A stretch of DNA of 38,554 bases from Elusimicrobiota bacterium (GTDB lineage: Bacteria; Elusimicrobiota; Elusimicrobia; Elusimicrobiales; UBA9959): the NCBI GenBank assembly GCA_016234365.1, contig JACRER010000005.1, positions 1 through 38,554 on the forward strand, in the 5' to 3' direction. The translations under genes were made by a program, and so were the position numbers. Positions 24,243-33,784 of this stretch are shown here, one piece after another (the stretch's first letter is position 1; every line of letters starts with the position of its first letter). The notes under the pieces were generated by a model, which was given only the letters and a program-made list of their open reading frames with translations, was not told where the DNA came from and made no database searches.

Positions 24243-24272
24243 ATTATATTAATTATATCCATATATCGTCAA
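24243..24272 (-). promoter_or_regulatory. Promoter of the rpsO-pnp operon
   Basis: On the minus strand TTGACG (24267-24272), 18 bp, then TATAAT (24243-24248), giving a start near 24236 and a leader of about 32 nt. The surrounding 40 bases are AT-rich. Confidence 0.75.
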
Positions 24273-24274
24273 CG

Positions 24275-24302
24275 GAAGGCCCCCCGCCGCCGGGGGGCCT
24301 TC
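24275..24302 (-). terminator. Stem-loop ending the envelope-module operon
   Basis: An 11-bp GC-rich stem (24275-24285 with 24292-24302, loop GCCGCC) lies 26 bases past the stop codon of the 24329-26989 gene and abuts the -35 box of the rpsO promoter. On the minus strand no U-tract follows, so termination may rely on the stem or on Rho. In the plus direction it is followed by an A-run. Confidence 0.55.
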
Positions 24303-24328: not shown

Positions 24329-26989
24329 TTATTTGATGTCCCAATAGCCGCCGGACTCGGTCTTGGTTATGCGGGCCGCTCCCCCCTCCACCGCTACGTG
24401 CTCGTAGACGGAGGACTTTTCTTCCCGCTTTATGTTCTTCTTGTAGATCCGGCTGCGGATGTCCATGTCGTAGGCGGCCGTGTAGCGGCCGGGGCCGTCG
24501 TTCACAATGTTGAGGCCGGTGATGGCGACCGTAATCTCGTCATAGACCCTGAAGATGTTGCGGAACTGTTCGTCCAGGTCGGAAGCGGCCGTGCCGTCCC
24601 CCGCCGACCAGCTGTCCGAGATGAAAGACATGACCCTGGCCGCGTTGCGGCTCTCGTAGGCTTTGGCGAAATCCTCGTACATCTTTTTGACGATGGCCAG
24701 GCCGGGGTCTCTTTTGTTTTGGGCGTCGCCCAGCTCTTTGACGCGCCTGGCTTCGCTCAGGGCTTTGCCTTTGGCGCTTCCCCAGAAAGCCGCCGTGGCT
24801 TTTTCCAGTTCGTCGCGTTTGGCGCCGGCCTGCACCGTCCAGAAGCCGGTCCGCTCCAGCAGTCCGGGGGACCCGAAGAGCGCCGCTTTTTTCACTTCAC
24901 CAATTATCGCGTTCTTTTCTTCCTCCGCCCGCTGGGACGGTTCAAAGAGCTTCTGCATCTCTTCGCCGTATTTTACGGCGTCGAGGGTTTCAAGATAGGT
25001 GAGGTCCCTGGCGGCGTTGGCTTTTACTCCCGTGGCGGCCTTGCCGTAGGCGGCGGCCAGCTTGTCGCTCTGTCCCTTGAGGTACTTCAAGGCTTCCTCG
25101 GCGCCGAACATCAGGTTGGCGGCCGTCTCGCTTCCGTCATACCAGCCGTCGGCGCTGAGGCTGTAGGAAGAGTACTCTTCCGATCTTTTCAGGATGGCGG
25201 CCATCGCCGCTTTGTGCGCCTTATTCTCCGCCGAATAAGCTATGTAGCCGGCTTCGTCCCGTAGCGGGCTGGAGGCCAGCCGTGAAAGTTCCGCGGCCCT
25301 GGCGGCCAGGTCCTGGGCCAGCACGGTGCCGCCGGCGTAGAGCTTGGAGAGTTCGGAGAAGGCGGGCCTCGCGGCCGCTACCTTAGCCTCCAGGTCTTTC
25401 AGGTCGTACTTGCCGTCGTAGGCGAATTCGTTAACGAAGTCGTTGGGCAGCGCGTTGAGCACCTCGTTCTTTTTTGCGGCCGCGGCCGTTATCTTTTCCA
25501 GCTGGCCCGTGACCTGCGGTTTGTAATCCTTGAACGCCTGCGCCTTGGCCAGGTACGAGGCCATCAGTTCGCTGGCCTCCGTGTAGATGGCGTCCTTCTG
25601 CCCGGCGGCGTTGTTCTGCACGCCCCGGAACCTGGCTTCCAGCCCGTCGGTCGCTTTCAGGTAGCCTTCCGCGTATTTCAGCGGGTTCTCGTAATAGGTG
25701 GTCCAGGCGGTCATGCCTTTTACGTTGTCCGGCTCGCTCACGTAATACCCCTGGGGTTTGTAGGTGTTGTAAACCGAGCGCCATTGCGCCGCATAGCCGG
25801 AGAGGTTGGTCATGATCGGCTCGATCCTGGATCTTATGTCGCTCCGCTGGCTCTCAAGCTGGGCCCTGAGCTTGCCTATCCGCCTGGCCATGGCGTCGGC
25901 GGATTGCTCCACGCTCTGCATATTGCCGTAGGTGCGCGTCCCCCCGAGGCTGTCCTCAAGGTTGGTCAGGGAAGCGAAGAGGTCTTCTATCTCGTCGGCT
26001 ACGAAATACCGGGTGCCGCTCGTTTCCGGCTTCGTTACCGAAGCCCACGCCGCTTCCGCGGCTTTCTGCTCGGCGTTTATCCCGGACCTCAGGCCGGCGA
26101 CGTACTTGTCTATGGCGGCCTGCATTTTGAGGCGCGCCTCTTGCGGCGTGTCCTTCGGCCCGGCGGCGGGCGGCGGCACCGCCGCGGGTTTGGAGATCTC
26201 GGTATTCACCAGCCCGGCGGGCTGGGTTTTTTTTGCCAGGTCCGCGGCTTTCTCCCCGCTCTTCTTCTCTTCTTCCTTGAGTTTCGCGGCGAGGGCCAGC
26301 AGCGGCGCGGCCTGGCCGAGGACGTTCTGGATGTTCTGGTCGGCCGCCTTTATCTCTACCGCCGTCTTGTCCAGTTTGTCCTGCATGTCGAAGACCATCT
26401 GGCGCAGTTCTGGGAGCTTTTCCCGGAGCGTCCTGCCGTCGGACTCGTCCTCCAGGAGGTTCTTGGCCTTAAGCAGGACGTCGATGTTGTCCTTGGAGAG
26501 CTGGCCGCTAAGCTCGTTCTCGTCCACTTTGTTGAAAACAAAAGTGCCGGCCTTTACCGCGTCGCTGTAACCGGGCACTCCCGCGGCCTCTTTTCCGGCC
26601 TCCGTCAGGACTCCCTTGCCGATGTATTTGCCGGCTCTCTTCATCCCCTCTTTGGCCAGGACGCTCACCCCGGCTTCCGTGGCGAGCGCTATACCGCCGG
26701 CGCCCAGCGTGGCCGCTGTCAGACCGTACTCTACCGCTTTGCACGCTTTCACGGCGTTGTCGCGCTGTATCATTTCTTCCACTTTTATCTTGGTCTTGGT
26801 AAGCCGGTTCATTACTTCCAGGTTGGAGGCCTGTTCCTTTATGGCTTTGGTCATGACCTTTCGGTAGGCCGCCGCGTCGTGTGAAAGCCAGCCCAGGTCG
26901 TTCTGGGCTTCACCGTAGGTCTTGGGGCCTCCGGCGCAGGCCGGCAGGGCGCCGCCCAGCAGCAACAAGGAAAAGAGAAAGTGTTTCAT
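24329..26989 (-). CDS. Large exported helical protein with C-terminal NTF2-like domain
   Basis: 886 residues, no family recognised. The N-terminus is a signal sequence (FLFSLLLLGGALPACAGG); the Cys at 18 with LPAC before it could be a lipobox with an unusual Pro at -2, or cleavage may occur after ACA. Residues 85-145 include a Gly/Ala-rich hydrophobic segment (YGLTAATLGAGGIALATEAG) that could insert in or contact a membrane. Most of the rest is predicted helical and partly coiled coil. From about 765 (IVKKMYEDFAKAYESRN, FISDSW) to the end (RITKTESGGYWDIK) lies an SnoaL/NTF2-like domain. A similar NTF2-like block occurs in the adjacent gene. It is the last of three genes encoding envelope proteins, suggesting a joint structure. 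Confidence 0.8.
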   Translation of the reverse strand: MKHFLFSLLLLGGALPACAGGPKTYGEAQNDLGWLSHDAAAYRKVMTKAIKEQASNLEVMNRLTKTKIKVEEMIQRDNAVKACKAVEYGLTAATLGAGGIALATEAGVSVLAKEGMKRAGKYIGKGVLTEAGKEAAGVPGYSDAVKAGTFVFNKVDENELSGQLSKDNIDVLLKAKNLLEDESDGRTLREKLPELRQMVFDMQDKLDKTAVEIKAADQNIQNVLGQAAPLLALAAKLKEEEKKSGEKAADLAKKTQPAGLVNTEISKPAAVPPPAAGPKDTPQEARLKMQAAIDKYVAGLRSGINAEQKAAEAAWASVTKPETSGTRYFVADEIEDLFASLTNLEDSLGGTRTYGNMQSVEQSADAMARRIGKLRAQLESQRSDIRSRIEPIMTNLSGYAAQWRSVYNTYKPQGYYVSEPDNVKGMTAWTTYYENPLKYAEGYLKATDGLEARFRGVQNNAAGQKDAIYTEASELMASYLAKAQAFKDYKPQVTGQLEKITAAAAKKNEVLNALPNDFVNEFAYDGKYDLKDLEAKVAAARPAFSELSKLYAGGTVLAQDLAARAAELSRLASSPLRDEAGYIAYSAENKAHKAAMAAILKRSEEYSSYSLSADGWYDGSETAANLMFGAEEALKYLKGQSDKLAAAYGKAATGVKANAARDLTYLETLDAVKYGEEMQKLFEPSQRAEEEKNAIIGEVKKAALFGSPGLLERTGFWTVQAGAKRDELEKATAAFWGSAKGKALSEARRVKELGDAQNKRDPGLAIVKKMYEDFAKAYESRNAARVMSFISDSWSAGDGTAASDLDEQFRNIFRVYDEITVAITGLNIVNDGPGRYTAAYDMDIRSRIYKKNIKREEKSSVYEHVAVEGGAARITKTESGGYWDIK

Positions 26990-27008
26990 GCTAGATCCCC
27001 GTATAAGA

Positions 27009-27037
27009 CGGCGGCGCGGATCCTCCCTGCGCCGCCG
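27009..27037 (-). other. GC-rich stem-loop in the gap between two envelope genes
   Basis: CGGCGGCGC (27009-27017) pairs with GCGCCGCCG (27029-27037) across an 11-nt loop in the 60-bp gap. On the minus strand TCTTATAC follows. It could attenuate expression of the last gene or stabilise the upstream message. Confidence 0.4.
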
Positions 27038-27049
27038 GCCTGTGTGGTA

Positions 27050-28270
27050 TTAGAACTTTTTGGTGCGGAAAGTTACCGTTTCCCCTGTGGTGGTGGGCCT
27101 GCCGGAAACCAGCTCCAGGCAGTAGAACTCGCTGGAGACGTCGAAGCAGTAGGAGTAGCCGGCCCCGGAGTCCGCGAGCGCTCCGCCGGCGTAGCCAGCG
27201 GTGTTCCTTACTTCCGCCGCGGTGAGCGACGACAGGGTTTTGTTGAACGCCTTGGCGTTGACCGACATGCCGATGACGTTGGCGGGCATGGAATTGTCGT
27301 AGAACCAGATGTTGGCCCCTCCGCCTGGCCCGCAGCTGTCGGCCGCGTTGGGGAAGTTATACGCCGGGAAGCTGCTGTCGGGGCAGGTTACGGTCACTAG
27401 CGTGCCGCCGCGCAGGCTGCCGGTCTCGTCTATTGTCAGGTTGCTGCCGGTGTTGCCCAGCACTTCGCCGGTGGCCACGTTCTCCGCGTCGGACAGGCCG
27501 AACATGAGCGGAGACTTCATGCTGAACAGCGAAAGCCTGCCCTCTTTCGAGTCGAAGACGAACTCGGTGGAGCCGGTGTCCGTGCTGGAGGCGCCCGTCT
27601 TGTTGACGAAGACCATGCGGTTGAACGTGACCGCCGCGAAAACGCGGCCCTGCGCGCCCGCCGCGATGTTGTTGAGGGTATAGCGCAGGTTGATGGAGCT
27701 GAGCGCGTCGAAATCCCGCTTTACCGCGCGTTCCAGGATGTCCTTGTCGGCGGCGAAATTCTCTCCGACGTAGCCCATGAACTTCCGGAGGTCTTCCTTA
27801 TTGTAGGCGTCGAACATCCCGTCCAGGGTCTCGCGCACCTTGGCCTGGATATTCTCTTCCGAAAGGGTTATCTCCTTGCGGGTGTCCTCCACGTTGTTGG
27901 TCTTGCCGGCGGTGTCGGTGACCTCTACCAGCATGGTGTAGGTCTTGCCGGCCTCCGGCTTGAAGGAGTACTCAAAAGCGCCGTTGTCCGCGAACTTTAC
28001 GTCCTGCCAGGTGCCCTTGTTGTCCAGGGTTATCCTGATGGCGCCGGTCTGCGTCCCGGCGGGCTTGCCGGTGATCCGTACCAGCCCGTCGGAGGGCAGC
28101 ATTTCCCTGAACAGTTTCATCTTGGGCCCGGTCTCGTCGGCGGGGATCTTGTTGACGTACAGGTATTTGAGCCCGACGTCGGCCTTGGACTTGCCGAAGA
28201 CCCACCATTTAGCGTCGGCCGCTCCGGCCGAGATCAGCAGTGCCGCCGCCAGGATAAGAAGTTTTTTCAT
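27050..28270 (-). CDS. Exported protein with Ig-like and NTF2-like domains
   Basis: 406 residues. A signal peptide (KKLLILAAALLISAGAADA, cleavage before KWW) is followed by a predicted Ig-like beta-sandwich (about 60-135, GLVRITGKPAG to VEVTDTAGKTN), of the type used for binding in surface proteins. An NTF2-like region (about 140-260, VRETLDGMFDAYNKEDLRKF, KFMGYVGENFAADKD, INLRYTLNNIA) comes next. The final 150 residues hold four Cys (TCPDS, DSCGP, YCFD, FYCLEL), compatible with disulfides. AAGGGGAA precedes ATG 28270, 20 bp after the barrel gene. No family name can be given; position suggests it works with the barrel and the large helical protein. Confidence 0.8.
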   Translation of the reverse strand: MKKLLILAAALLISAGAADAKWWVFGKSKADVGLKYLYVNKIPADETGPKMKLFREMLPSDGLVRITGKPAGTQTGAIRITLDNKGTWQDVKFADNGAFEYSFKPEAGKTYTMLVEVTDTAGKTNNVEDTRKEITLSEENIQAKVRETLDGMFDAYNKEDLRKFMGYVGENFAADKDILERAVKRDFDALSSINLRYTLNNIAAGAQGRVFAAVTFNRMVFVNKTGASSTDTGSTEFVFDSKEGRLSLFSMKSPLMFGLSDAENVATGEVLGNTGSNLTIDETGSLRGGTLVTVTCPDSSFPAYNFPNAADSCGPGGGANIWFYDNSMPANVIGMSVNAKAFNKTLSSLTAAEVRNTAGYAGGALADSGAGYSYCFDVSSEFYCLELVSGRPTTTGETVTFRTKKF

Positions 28271-28290
28271 GATAATTCCCCTTTATTACC

Positions 28291-29877
28291 TTAGAAAGCC
28301 GTGTTCAGGCCCACCGTCACGCTTTTCTCGCGGAAGTTGTTGGCCGTGGTGGTGAACGAGTAGGCGTTGTAGCCGGCGCGAAGGAAGAGGGTGGACTCTT
28401 TCAGCTTTGCCAGCAGAGCGGGGCGCCAATAGGCGCTGAGCGCTGCGAAGAACTTGTCGGAATCCACGGAACCGGCGGCGGACTTGCGCAGCATATTCTG
28501 CCCAAGGCGCAGATCGCTTGTCAGGCTGGCGTCGGGCGCCTCGCACCCCAGGCTCAGCGAGTACTCGTAGAGCTTGTCGGTGGTGTCGGCCAGTTCGTCC
28601 TTGGAGTACCAGGTGCCAAGGTTCACGGCCGGCTTGAGCGCCACGGCGCCCAGCTGGTGGCGGGAGCTCAGCGAGGTGTTGAAGTTTACCTCGCGCGCGT
28701 CGCGCACCGCCGCCTTCGTCCGGTAGAGCGTATAGCCAAGGTTGGTGTCTGAGTCCAGCTCGCCGAAGCGGTCGCGGTAGTTGGCGTTAAGATAATGGTC
28801 CGCGCCGCTTTGCCCTGCGCCGTACTTGCGGTCGAACTTGTAGGAGAGGTCGGCGAAGGAGTAGGGCCTGGATGCGAAAGGCTTCTTGATGGCGGCGGAA
28901 ACTTCCGGCTTCCAGTTGCGCGTGGTGCCGGCCGCGGTATTGCCGTCGAGGTTGTTGCGGTACCAGAGCAGGCCGGAGGTGACGGTGACCTGGCTGGAGT
29001 ACTTGTAGCGCCACTTGGTCTTTATTTTGCGGCGGTCGGGGCTGGCCGAGCCCAGCGCGGAGAAAAAGTCGGGCTCCACGTTCTCGTATTCGAGCGTTAC
29101 GCGGCTCGGGTCGGCGTCGCCCGTGAGCTCAAGACGGGCCGCGGTGCCGTTGGCGGAAACCTTGGCGGCGCCGGCCGAAGGAGACTGCAGCGAGTCGGCC
29201 TTGGAGTATTCCCCGCCCAGCGTAAGGCCGGGCATCGGCAGGTAACTGAAGTCCGCGGTGTAGTTCTTCGCGTCGTAGAGGGCGTCGGTGGCGTTGAGCC
29301 GGCCGGTGTCCTTGGCGGAAACGGCGCTGAGGCCGGCCCAGAGATCGCCGCTGAAATTTTCCTTGACCCGCAGGCCGGCGGCCTGGCGGTCTACGGTGCG
29401 CGTCACCGGGTCTTTCCAGACGGAATCCCAGCGGGGGTAGGCCCAGCCGAAGACGCCGGTGACTTCCGGCAGCTTTGACCCGTCCTTGAAGAACCTGTAA
29501 GAGCCGCCCTTCAGCGAGGTGGCCAGCGAATACTGGGAGAAGAATTCGAACACGTCGCCCGCGGTCAGCGTGTGGACGTTGTTCGTAGCGCGGCCCTGCA
29601 CGTTGGTCAGGGAGAGCTTTTTGGCGTCGTTGCGCAGGTCGTCGGTGGCTTTACCGCCGGCGGTATAGTTGTAGGTCCACTCGCCCCTGGCGCCGTTGCC
29701 GTAGACGTTGAGGACTTCCAGGTAATTAAGGCCCTTGGTCAGCGAGGAAGCTGCCTTGCCGGCGCCTTTTATCTGGTTGCTCACAACGGAGAATTCGTTG
29801 GAGGCGTGGAATTCGGAAGCTGCCCGCGCCGGAACGCAGGCGAAAAAGATCGATATGGCCGCTGCTATGGTCTTCAT
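28291..29877 (-). CDS. Outer-membrane beta-barrel protein, unknown function
   Basis: 528 residues from ATG 29877, with signal peptide MKTIAAAISIFFACVPARA-AS. An in-frame ATG at 29907 adds ten mostly basic residues and has AAGG 5 bases upstream, so it is a real alternative. The mature chain is a long series of amphipathic strands with aromatic ends (for example LTLGGEYSKAD, RVTLEYENVEPDFF, KWRYKYSSQVTVTSGLLWYR, LYEYSLSLGCEAP), separated by polar turns; 14-18 strands seem possible. It ends SVTVGLNTAF, the C-terminal Phe expected of BAM-inserted proteins. It is the first gene of the three-gene module and is divergent from the glutamine-synthetase-like gene. No clear promoter was found upstream. 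Confidence 0.85.
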   Translation of the reverse strand: MKTIAAAISIFFACVPARAASEFHASNEFSVVSNQIKGAGKAASSLTKGLNYLEVLNVYGNGARGEWTYNYTAGGKATDDLRNDAKKLSLTNVQGRATNNVHTLTAGDVFEFFSQYSLATSLKGGSYRFFKDGSKLPEVTGVFGWAYPRWDSVWKDPVTRTVDRQAAGLRVKENFSGDLWAGLSAVSAKDTGRLNATDALYDAKNYTADFSYLPMPGLTLGGEYSKADSLQSPSAGAAKVSANGTAARLELTGDADPSRVTLEYENVEPDFFSALGSASPDRRKIKTKWRYKYSSQVTVTSGLLWYRNNLDGNTAAGTTRNWKPEVSAAIKKPFASRPYSFADLSYKFDRKYGAGQSGADHYLNANYRDRFGELDSDTNLGYTLYRTKAAVRDAREVNFNTSLSSRHQLGAVALKPAVNLGTWYSKDELADTTDKLYEYSLSLGCEAPDASLTSDLRLGQNMLRKSAAGSVDSDKFFAALSAYWRPALLAKLKESTLFLRAGYNAYSFTTTANNFREKSVTVGLNTAF

Positions 29878-29985
29878 TTTTCTGTTCTTTCTCCCCTTCC
29901 CGTGCATTTGTGCCTTGAAACGATATCAAAAAAAAGGCCTGCCTTCAAATATTCTACGGCGAAAAAAATTTGTTATTATCATCTT

Positions 29986-31476
29986 ATGAATCCTAATAGA
30001 ATATACGCCAACCGGATAGCAGCTTTCCTTAACAAGGAGCCCCGCGACTTTACCCGCCCGGACCTTGTGAAATACATCAAGGCCAACGGCGTGAAGATGG
30101 TCAACTTCCGCTACGTCGCGGGCGACGGCCGCCTGAAGACCCTGAATTTCATAATCAACGACGAACGCTACCTGGACCGCATCCTTTCCGCCGGGGAGCG
30201 CGTGGACGGTTCCAGCCTGTTCAAGAGCATAGACGCGGGATCGAGCGACCTGTACGTGGTGCCGCGCTACCGCACCGCGTTCGTTAACCCGTTCTCCCAG
30301 GTCCCCGCCATCGATATTCTCTGCTCGTTCTACACTCCCGACGGCAAGCCGTTCCAGAGCGCGCCCGCGGAAGTGCTGCGCCGGGCCGAGGCCGAGTTCA
30401 CCAAGGTCTCCGGCAGCGAATTCCACGCGCTGGGTGAACTGGAGTACTACGTAATAGCCCCGCGCACCCCGCTGTACCCGGCGGCCGCGCAGAAGGGCTA
30501 CCATGAAGCCCAGCCCTTCGCCAAATGGGAGGCGCTGCGCACGGAGGCCATGGCCGCCATCGCCGAGGCCGGCGGGCGCATAAAGTACGGCCACAGCGAG
30601 GTGGGCCTTATCCGCGCCGAGGATTCCGAGATGACGCAGCAGGAAATAGAATTCCTGCCGGTGCCTGCCTCCGAGGCCGCCGACCAGCTTGCCGTGGCCA
30701 AGTGGATGCTGTCCGCCATCGGCCACAAGTACGGCGTCGTCATTTCCTTCGCGCCCAAGATCTCCATAGGCCACGCCGGTTCCGGCCTGCACGTGCACAC
30801 CTGCCTGCACAAGAACGGGCGCAACATCATGCTGGAGAAGGGCGCGCTGTCGGCGCCGGCCCGCCGGCTGATAGCCGGCTACATGGAACTGGCCGCGCCC
30901 ATGACCGCCTTCGGCAATACCGTGCCCACGTCCTACTTCCGCCTGGTGCCGCACCAGGAAGCGCCCATCAACGTCTGCTGGGCTTACCGCAACCGCTCCT
31001 CCCTGGTGCGCATACCGCTGGGCTGGACCAACGCTTCCGGCATGATAAAGGACGCCAACCCCGGCTCCGCCGTGCCTGCCGTGGAACCGGCGCAGACCGT
31101 GGAGTTCCGCTCCGCCGACGGTTCAGCCGCGCTGCACCTGCTGATGGCCGGGCTCTGCGTGGCCGCGCGCCGCGGCTTTGAGCGTAAGGACGCGCTCGCC
31201 TACGCGGATAAATTCTTCGTCGACAAGAACATCTATCACAAGGAACATGCCGCGCTGCTCTCCAAGCTGCCCAAACTGCCAGCTTCCTGCTGGGAGTCGG
31301 CCGAGACGCTTCTCAAGCACCGTTCCATCTTCGAGGCCAAGGGTGTGTTCACCCCGCAGCTGATAGACGGCCTGGTTAAGCGCCTGAAGTCTTACGACGA
31401 CCAGAATCTCAGCGAGCGCCTCTTCGGCAAGGAAGAGGATATAAAGCACCTGGTGGACGAGTTCCTCTACTGCTGA
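29986..31476 (+). CDS. Glutamine synthetase family protein (divergent GlnA-like ligase)
   Basis: 496 residues from ATG 29986, where the GS beta-grasp begins; the frame is open further upstream, but that part lies over the opposing barrel gene. No Shine-Dalgarno is visible. GS landmarks: MVNFRYVAGDGRLKTLNF (beta-grasp), E-x-E at 151-153 (GELEYY), Glu205 and Glu220 (TQQEIEF), the ATP/glutamate loop GSGLHVH (His269, His271), YRNRSSLVRIP (334-344) and VEFRSADGS (372-380). Departures from classic GS-I: ALHLLMAGL replaces the usual NPYL block after the ExR motif, and there is no adenylylation Tyr motif. It may be true glutamine synthetase or a gamma-glutamyl ligase acting on another amine. It is followed 4 bp later by the M23 peptidase gene. 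Confidence 0.87.
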   Translation: MNPNRIYANRIAAFLNKEPRDFTRPDLVKYIKANGVKMVNFRYVAGDGRLKTLNFIINDERYLDRILSAGERVDGSSLFKSIDAGSSDLYVVPRYRTAFVNPFSQVPAIDILCSFYTPDGKPFQSAPAEVLRRAEAEFTKVSGSEFHALGELEYYVIAPRTPLYPAAAQKGYHEAQPFAKWEALRTEAMAAIAEAGGRIKYGHSEVGLIRAEDSEMTQQEIEFLPVPASEAADQLAVAKWMLSAIGHKYGVVISFAPKISIGHAGSGLHVHTCLHKNGRNIMLEKGALSAPARRLIAGYMELAAPMTAFGNTVPTSYFRLVPHQEAPINVCWAYRNRSSLVRIPLGWTNASGMIKDANPGSAVPAVEPAQTVEFRSADGSAALHLLMAGLCVAARRGFERKDALAYADKFFVDKNIYHKEHAALLSKLPKLPASCWESAETLLKHRSIFEAKGVFTPQLIDGLVKRLKSYDDQNLSERLFGKEEDIKHLVDEFLYC

Positions 31477-32652: not shown

Positions 32653-32673
32653 AGGCCGGCGGTTACCCGGCCT
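32653..32673. terminator. Short stem between convergent genes
   Basis: AGGCCGG (32653-32659) pairs with CCGGCCT (32667-32673) across a 7-nt loop, overlapping the stop codon of the RMD1-like gene in the 12-bp gap between convergent genes. There is no U-tract on either side, so it is only a weak candidate. Confidence 0.4.
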
Positions 32674-33784
32674 TGCCGTCCCTCAGCATGATGTAGAGGA
32701 ACGGGATCACCTCTATAGCGATCAGGACTATCACTATTATTTCCAGCCAGTGGCTGCGGCGGGTGTTGACCTCGCCGTGGAGGATCTGGCTTATCTGCGC
32801 CAGGGTGTCCATCTTGCGGGAGATGCTTTTGCGCCAGTCGTCGAAATGGAACTCCAGCGCCGAGGCCCGGAAGACAACGGCCAGGTACGGGTCTCCCACG
32901 GTTTTGAGCGAGTTCTCCACGCGGCCCAGGAATTCCGAGAATTCCATGTACTTGAGGCTGGAATCCTCGGCGATGTCCGCGTAGAAGTTCTTGAAAATAT
33001 TGGCCACGCTTTCGCGCTTCTGCTCCATGGTGTCGTAGAGCTCTTCCAGCTTGCGCCCCAGCATCTCGTCGTAGTAGCGGAATTCCAGCAGGTGCGTCAG
33101 AGAGAACTCTATTACGTCCGCCACGTCGCGCTCCCCGTCGGGCTCCAGCAGCAGGGCCGAGTTCCAGTCTATGATGGCCAGGTCCGAGTTGGAGTACTGG
33201 GTGGCGCTCTCAAGGATAAAGTTGCGCGATTCCTCGCTGAGGCGTTCCTTGTCCTCGGCCAGGATGAGCGCCGCCACGTCCACCTTTTTTATGAATTCCC
33301 GGGGGTTCTCCATGCCATCCGCTTTTTCCACGATGTAGGTGATGTAGTCCTCGAAAATTTCCCATTCCGCCGGATTTGTGACGGCCGGCATTATGCGCTT
33401 TTTCAGGGCGTCCTTGCGGGAAACCGCTATCAGGTCCACTTCCTCGGATTTTTCCAGCTCCGACGCCAATTTAACGAGCTTCTCCCAGGTAGTGCCGGCG
33501 GGCATGGCTATTTCCAGGGTGACCGAGATAACGCCGTAGTTCCAGAGGCGGGCGAAGATGCGTATCGGCAGGGTCCCGCCGGGCAGGTCGAGCTTTTCCT
33601 CGCCCAGGTCCACGCGCAGCGGTGATTCCTTGATTATTACGGCCTTTCGGGTATTGGTGGCGAATTTAAGGCGCGGGCCGCTGTCCGAACTGAGCAGTTG
33701 CTCGGCCCGGGCAAGGGTTATTTCGCCTCCGATGTCGAAGACCCTGTGGACGAGAATGGTGCCTTTCTGTATTGCTACGGACAT
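32663..33784 (-). CDS. RMD1/DUF155-family protein with C-terminal membrane anchor
   Basis: 373 residues. Layout matches the RMD1/Sif2 (DUF155) family: an N-terminal alpha/beta region, LPIRIFARLWNYGVISVTLE (about 72-91), a long helical middle with DLAIIDWNSALLLEPDGERD and FSLTHLLEFRYYDEMLGRKL, and a C-terminal single membrane helix (about 347-367) preceded by NTRRSHWLEIIVIVLIAIEV. Yeast and human relatives are mitochondrial, and bacterial members have no settled function. GGAGG precedes ATG 33784. It follows the thioredoxin-like gene by 21 bp, and cinA before that, forming a three-gene operon. No enzymatic motif is seen. Confidence 0.82.
   Translation of the reverse strand: MSVAIQKGTILVHRVFDIGGEITLARAEQLLSSDSGPRLKFATNTRKAVIIKESPLRVDLGEEKLDLPGGTLPIRIFARLWNYGVISVTLEIAMPAGTTWEKLVKLASELEKSEEVDLIAVSRKDALKKRIMPAVTNPAEWEIFEDYITYIVEKADGMENPREFIKKVDVAALILAEDKERLSEESRNFILESATQYSNSDLAIIDWNSALLLEPDGERDVADVIEFSLTHLLEFRYYDEMLGRKLEELYDTMEQKRESVANIFKNFYADIAEDSSLKYMEFSEFLGRVENSLKTVGDPYLAVVFRASALEFHFDDWRKSISRKMDTLAQISQILHGEVNTRRSHWLEIIVIVLIAIEVIPFLYIMLRDGKAG

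Follow-up and report, generated by a model that had tools for sequence, protein, structure and literature searches.

Three adjacent genes in a 38,554-nucleotide stretch of the Elusimicrobiota contig JACRER010000005.1 (hereafter the window) form a real unit, which encodes a large outer-membrane barrel and two exported soluble proteins. Sequence comparison between species indicates that the barrel is kept constant while the variable ends of the two soluble proteins are replaced as blocks. The explanation that best accounts for these observations, with a probability of about one half, is that the module is a barrel-anchored surface display or attachment system diversified by cassettes, with one constant anchor and two variable passengers.

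Gene order and distribution of the module

All three genes are open reading frames on the reverse strand. The barrel gene (28291..29877) encodes a protein of 528 amino acids, consisting of a signal peptide and a predicted outer-membrane beta barrel of approximately 26 strands; its start at 29877 was chosen from a 31-member alignment of relatives, a longer reading frame (29907-28291) beginning at an alternative start, 29907, on the same strand. After a gap of 20 nt this is followed by the gene for an exported Ig/NTF2 protein of 406 amino acids (27050..28270) and, after a further 60 nt, by that for an exported helical protein of 886 amino acids (24329..26989), here termed type A. Each product has an N-terminus resembling a Sec-type signal peptide, and a convincing lipobox is absent from all three. 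The cotranscription described in the sequence-only reading is inferred from the spacing of the genes.

Beyond the 3' end of the helical gene, inspection of the sequence reveals a strong GC hairpin (24275..24302, reverse strand), not followed by a run of T, that may represent the transcript end of the module. It is followed on the same strand by a near-consensus promoter (24243..24272; TTGACG-18-TATAAT, 11 of 12 matches) serving rpsO-pnp. As rpsO therefore has a promoter of its own, the module is probably transcriptionally separate from rpsO-pnp, which flanks it on this side. On the other side lies a divergent glutamine-synthetase-like gene. The product of this gene (29983-31476 in the window), which adjoins the module in most genus mates, scores under every curated cut-off, the best being that of GlnA (201.6 bits against 429). 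Another conserved neighbour (32666-33784), encoding 373 amino acids, has no NCBIfam match.

The three proteins were searched for in 101 relatives, mostly draft genomes in which contig ends cut some of the loci, and a scan of 341 genomes across the phylum found 46 positive for the barrel profile and 38 for the helical profile. The full triple is present in one order at 28 loci of the bacterial family, including that of the window, and in the same order at three loci from other families (L101, L103 and L104), with the gap between the barrel and Ig genes staying near 20 nt. This conservation of gene order is maintained in many different neighbourhoods: glnA and/or rpsO-pnp adjoin the module in most genus mates, unrelated genes surround it elsewhere in others, and no conserved gene besides the three is found across the sampled contexts. 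The separate occurrence of the genes in relatives, which would speak against a unit, is mostly absent. The exceptions are two loci with a barrel and an Ig protein at which no helical gene is detectable (L063 and L064), and two at which the region upstream of the barrel contains a second, diverged pair of Ig and helical genes in tandem, unaccompanied by a second barrel (L050 and L054). In family f26 the order is reversed, such that the gene for the NTF2 protein precedes that for the barrel; hence the pairing of these two proteins outlasts rearrangement.

Gain and loss of the module can also be traced. In eight genus mates lacking it, glnA directly adjoins rpsO-pnp, forming an empty site, and the same arrangement is seen in three genomes with the module at another position, reflecting relocation. 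In genome G012, a single reading frame between an M23 peptidase gene and rpsO (L070:7086-7535) fuses the first 80 or so residues of the barrel to the C-terminus of the helical protein, and represents an internal deletion of the module. Two side observations concern individual loci. In four genomes of family f21 (G306, G307, G309 and G310; L105-L112), contig breaks recur in the Ig gene, shortly after it or within the helical gene, and three barrel loci are present in G310; together these suggest several copies or mixed alleles. Just downstream of one module (L042:10959-15893) lies a gene whose product of 1645 amino acids contains fn3 repeats and gives a weak match to a CHU_C type IX sorting domain.

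The barrel and its two exported partners

None of the three proteins reached a curated family in Pfam, NCBIfam or PHROGs. Searches of PHROGs, PADLOC and a library of viral folds returned nothing useful, a weak PADLOC match to LmuB (E 9e-4) being treated as a chance coiled-coil similarity. The sensitive profile and structure searches produced no clear match to an unrelated known family, and the sequence-only reading had likewise recognised none.

The AlphaFold2 (AF2) model of the barrel, built from 31 sequences, has approximately 26 strands over residues 32-537 (pLDDT 86, pTM 0.73), all of which is barrel, with no further domain recognised. Foldseek matches are exclusively to large outer-membrane barrels, such as the FimD/PapC usher pores, AlgE and MtrB, which bears out the original assignment of the protein to this class; a profile search of the PDB with the window protein gave no sequence match. 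Conservation is greater at positions predicted to face the lumen than at those facing lipid, and two outer loops of the predicted topology (120-131 and 156-172) are among the most conserved parts of the barrel, the inside and outside loops being assigned by strand parity in one AF2 model. One distant homologue (L062:6648-8807) has an N-terminal CsgG-type domain that scores above the Pfam cut-off (E 3.9e-6).

The lowest Foldseek E-values are those for FimD/PapC (1.6e-10), and the presence of an Ig-like partner would also fit a chaperone-usher-like assembly, with the barrel as the usher pore and the Ig protein as subunit or chaperone. This is nevertheless very improbable: the TM-scores are only 0.3-0.5 and the rmsd is large, the matches to AlgE and MtrB are about as good, MtrB having the best TM-score (0.56) among the listed matches, and no usher match is found in Pfam or NCBIfam. 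Membership of the chaperone-usher class itself was rejected, as neither an usher family nor a plug nor the periplasmic N and C domains are recognised, and chaperone and pilin genes are found neither in the window module nor among the sampled neighbours. A TonB-dependent receptor was similarly rejected, with no plug domain or Pfam receptor family recognised in 31 barrel members.

The constant part of the Ig/NTF2 protein comprises two domains on the reverse strand. The first, delimited by alignment, is a conserved mature N-terminus, KWW(I/V)FGK, with an Ig-like domain (residues 21-138; 27857..28210). The second is an NTF2-like domain (residues 139-262; 27485..27856), identified using hhalign against the C-termini of type B helical proteins. 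Big_13 is matched at E<=0.01 by 22 of 33 family members, the window protein having an E of 1.4e-4 and a score of 22.7, under the curated Pfam cut-off of 27. The Ig-like domain also gives a profile match to those of sulfite oxidase (E 4e-5), beyond which the PDB profile search found nothing for it. Pfam support for the NTF2 domains is weak, as DUF4440 and SnoaL_2 match only two of the 33 members. Together with the profile similarity to the helical proteins at their NTF2 end, these matches support the original description of an exported protein with Ig-like and NTF2-like domains.

The helical protein exists in at least two forms related at one end. Residues 762-886 of the type A protein (24332..24706, reverse strand), which align between types A and B, form a constant NTF2-like domain, fitting the cone-shaped alpha+beta fold with Foldseek target TM-scores of about 0.6-0.7 to NTF2-like structures; the matches are to LinA, scytalone dehydratase, the CaMKII hub, Csd6 and Bd1075. 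The preceding region (residues 25-760; 24710..26917, reverse strand) is identified from hydropathy and AF2 helices as one of very long helices, and in other species its place is taken by unrelated sequence. This region is modelled at moderate confidence (pLDDT 78.9 and pTM 0.55 for the type A model) and contains a Gly-rich hydrophobic stretch at about residues 76-163, found by hydropathy and modelled at low confidence. Both the helices and this segment had been read correctly from the sequence. Type B proteins are 940-1104 amino acids long, have only the C-terminal end in common with type A, and in most members carry an Ig-like domain before the NTF2 end; no Ig domain is detectable in type A, which has two cysteines. 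A PDB profile search with the type B proteins gave nothing meaningful.

The Ig-NTF2 pair of the Ig protein aligns with the end of the type B helical protein at a probability of 98.5% (hhalign, E 3.7e-15), and HMMs of the two NTF2 domains cross-match in several genomes. As these ends are homologous, the two soluble proteins are partial paralogues, built on a common platform from which the variable parts extend at opposite ends: C-terminal in the Ig protein and N-terminal in the helical protein. The sequence-only reading, although right about the types of part, overlooked this platform, the NTF2-like domain at the end of the helical protein and the swapping of cassettes.

The very long helices in the AF2 model raise the alternative of an envelope scaffold, in which the soluble parts would remain periplasmic, the helical protein would span the periplasm, and the set would hold or shape the outer membrane. 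The occurrence of NTF2 domains in the periplasmic proteins Csd6 and Bd1075 and the CsgG-type periplasmic domain of one distant barrel (E 3.9e-6) would be compatible with such a role. However, the module is patchily distributed and has been lost within a single genus, and its cassettes have been replaced repeatedly; both are a poor fit to a structural housekeeping part, and a scaffold is considered unlikely.

Replacement of the variable ends

In the Ig protein, the cassette at the C-terminus (residues 263-406, about 140 residues; 27053..27484, reverse strand) is far more variable than the Ig and NTF2 domains or the barrel. Over the 150 pairs whose barrels exceed 70% identity, mean identity is 0.77 for the barrel, 0.73 for the Ig domain and 0.79 for the NTF2 domain, as against 0.42 for the cassette. 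The clearest case is the comparison of loci L058 and L059, with identities of 0.97, 0.98 and 0.98 for the barrel, Ig and NTF2 domains and 0.34 for the cassette. The DNA of these operons is about 97% identical over most of its length, with sharp borders at a diverged block of some 570 bases that covers the cassette and the signal peptide of the next gene. The cassette of the window protein contains four cysteines and no CXXCH motif. Among 61 genomes the cassette was found in no other protein, and no second copy was found in the genome.

At least six unrelated types can be distinguished among the N-terminal parts of the helical proteins (residues 25-760 in the type A protein). Mapping types A and B onto the tree of the barrels, most inner branches of which are weak, requires six changes, of which at least three are forced by well-supported branches; L042 (type A) and L051 (type B) are sisters with support of 100/100. 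The helical proteins of L058 and L059 are 96% identical despite the different cassettes, and hence the two variable regions change independently.

That cassettes are replaced in both soluble proteins while the barrel stays constant favours a role facing the surface or a partner, rather than that of a housekeeping envelope component, though recombination could possibly swap domains within the periplasm in the absence of surface exposure. In the preferred explanation, that of display or attachment, the constant Ig/NTF2 parts would attach both passengers to the barrel and link them to one another through NTF2-NTF2 pairing, as NTF2-like domains commonly form dimers. The variable ends would face outward, where they could engage targets that change, for instance surfaces, hosts, prey or competing cells, or evade recognition by phage. 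The barrel may double as an exit channel.

The proposal that the parts resemble an export or surface-attachment machine is thus supported as regards a conserved unit of the right types of part, and cassette replacement favours its surface-facing half. Export through the barrel is hard to explain, because no linked energy source, protease or immunity gene is associated with the module. A combined outer-membrane secretion and display machine, in which the barrel of approximately 26 strands would export both passengers by means of a common Ig-NTF2 signal domain, with the ends being exchanged modularly, is a rather less probable interpretation; no Ig/NTF2 secretion system was found in the literature.

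The swappable region, Gly-rich hydrophobic stretch and constant docking end of the helical protein are also what might be expected if, in the manner of polymorphic toxins, it were a variable effector that the barrel delivers. Such antagonism seems quite unlikely, as no toxin family is matched above cut-off in Pfam or NCBIfam, and the gene that follows the module in the window is rpsO, with different neighbours elsewhere. A toxin-immunity pairing was rejected given the lack of a linked immunity gene and the independent variation of the two regions.

The cassette might instead set the specificity of an uptake system, with the barrel as channel, the Ig/NTF2 protein as ligand-binding partner and the helical protein as periplasmic spacer. 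NTF2-like domains often bind small ligands, enzymes of this kind are among the Foldseek matches, and the barrel partner in family f26 has a weakly HmuY-like (haem-binding) C-terminus (E 0.002). However, this likeness of distant cassettes is not reproduced in the window family, the window cassette having no Pfam match and nothing meaningful in the PDB profile search. The barrel has neither a recognised TonB plug nor a receptor family match, the Ig protein lacks a convincing lipobox and no transporter is linked across loci. Uptake is accordingly regarded as improbable.

Comparison with known systems

No account of the module was found in the Elusimicrobiota literature at the level of titles and abstracts. 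Were the preferred reading of surface display or attachment correct, a phylum known mainly from metagenomes would possess a modular surface device docking via an Ig-NTF2 platform, a combination unmatched by any searched family, and the natural cassette swaps would provide ready comparisons for identifying the binding target of each variable end. Should the function turn out to be another, the barrel and both types of helical protein remain unannotated families whose genetic partner is clear.

The module shares with the FimD/PapC chaperone-usher systems the combination of a large barrel in the outer membrane and an exported, Ig-like partner, but differs in that no usher plug or periplasmic domains are recognised, in its lack of pilin and chaperone families, and in the low TM-score. 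MtrB, which forms the 26-stranded conduit of the Mtr complex, is similar in strand number, but there is no sequence match to it; since no CXXCH haem motifs are seen in the window proteins, and hence no multihaem cytochrome partner, an Mtr-type electron conduit was rejected. Bd1075 of Bdellovibrio and Csd6 of Helicobacter are periplasmic proteins that, like the helical protein, have a C-terminal NTF2-like domain. In Bd1075 this domain targets the protein (PMC8938487), which provides a precedent for a targeting function of NTF2-like domains in the periplasm. Both are peptidoglycan carboxypeptidases, whereas no carboxypeptidase domain was recognised in the module proteins.

Polymorphic toxin and variable-tip adhesin systems join a constant export or docking part to a replaceable variable domain. 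The module is like these in logic only, with no family in common, and differs in having no immunity genes and in that no other copy of the cassette was found in the genome. Although no homology to any described member was found, the module would be a system of this general kind, exported and composed of a constant platform and variable domains.
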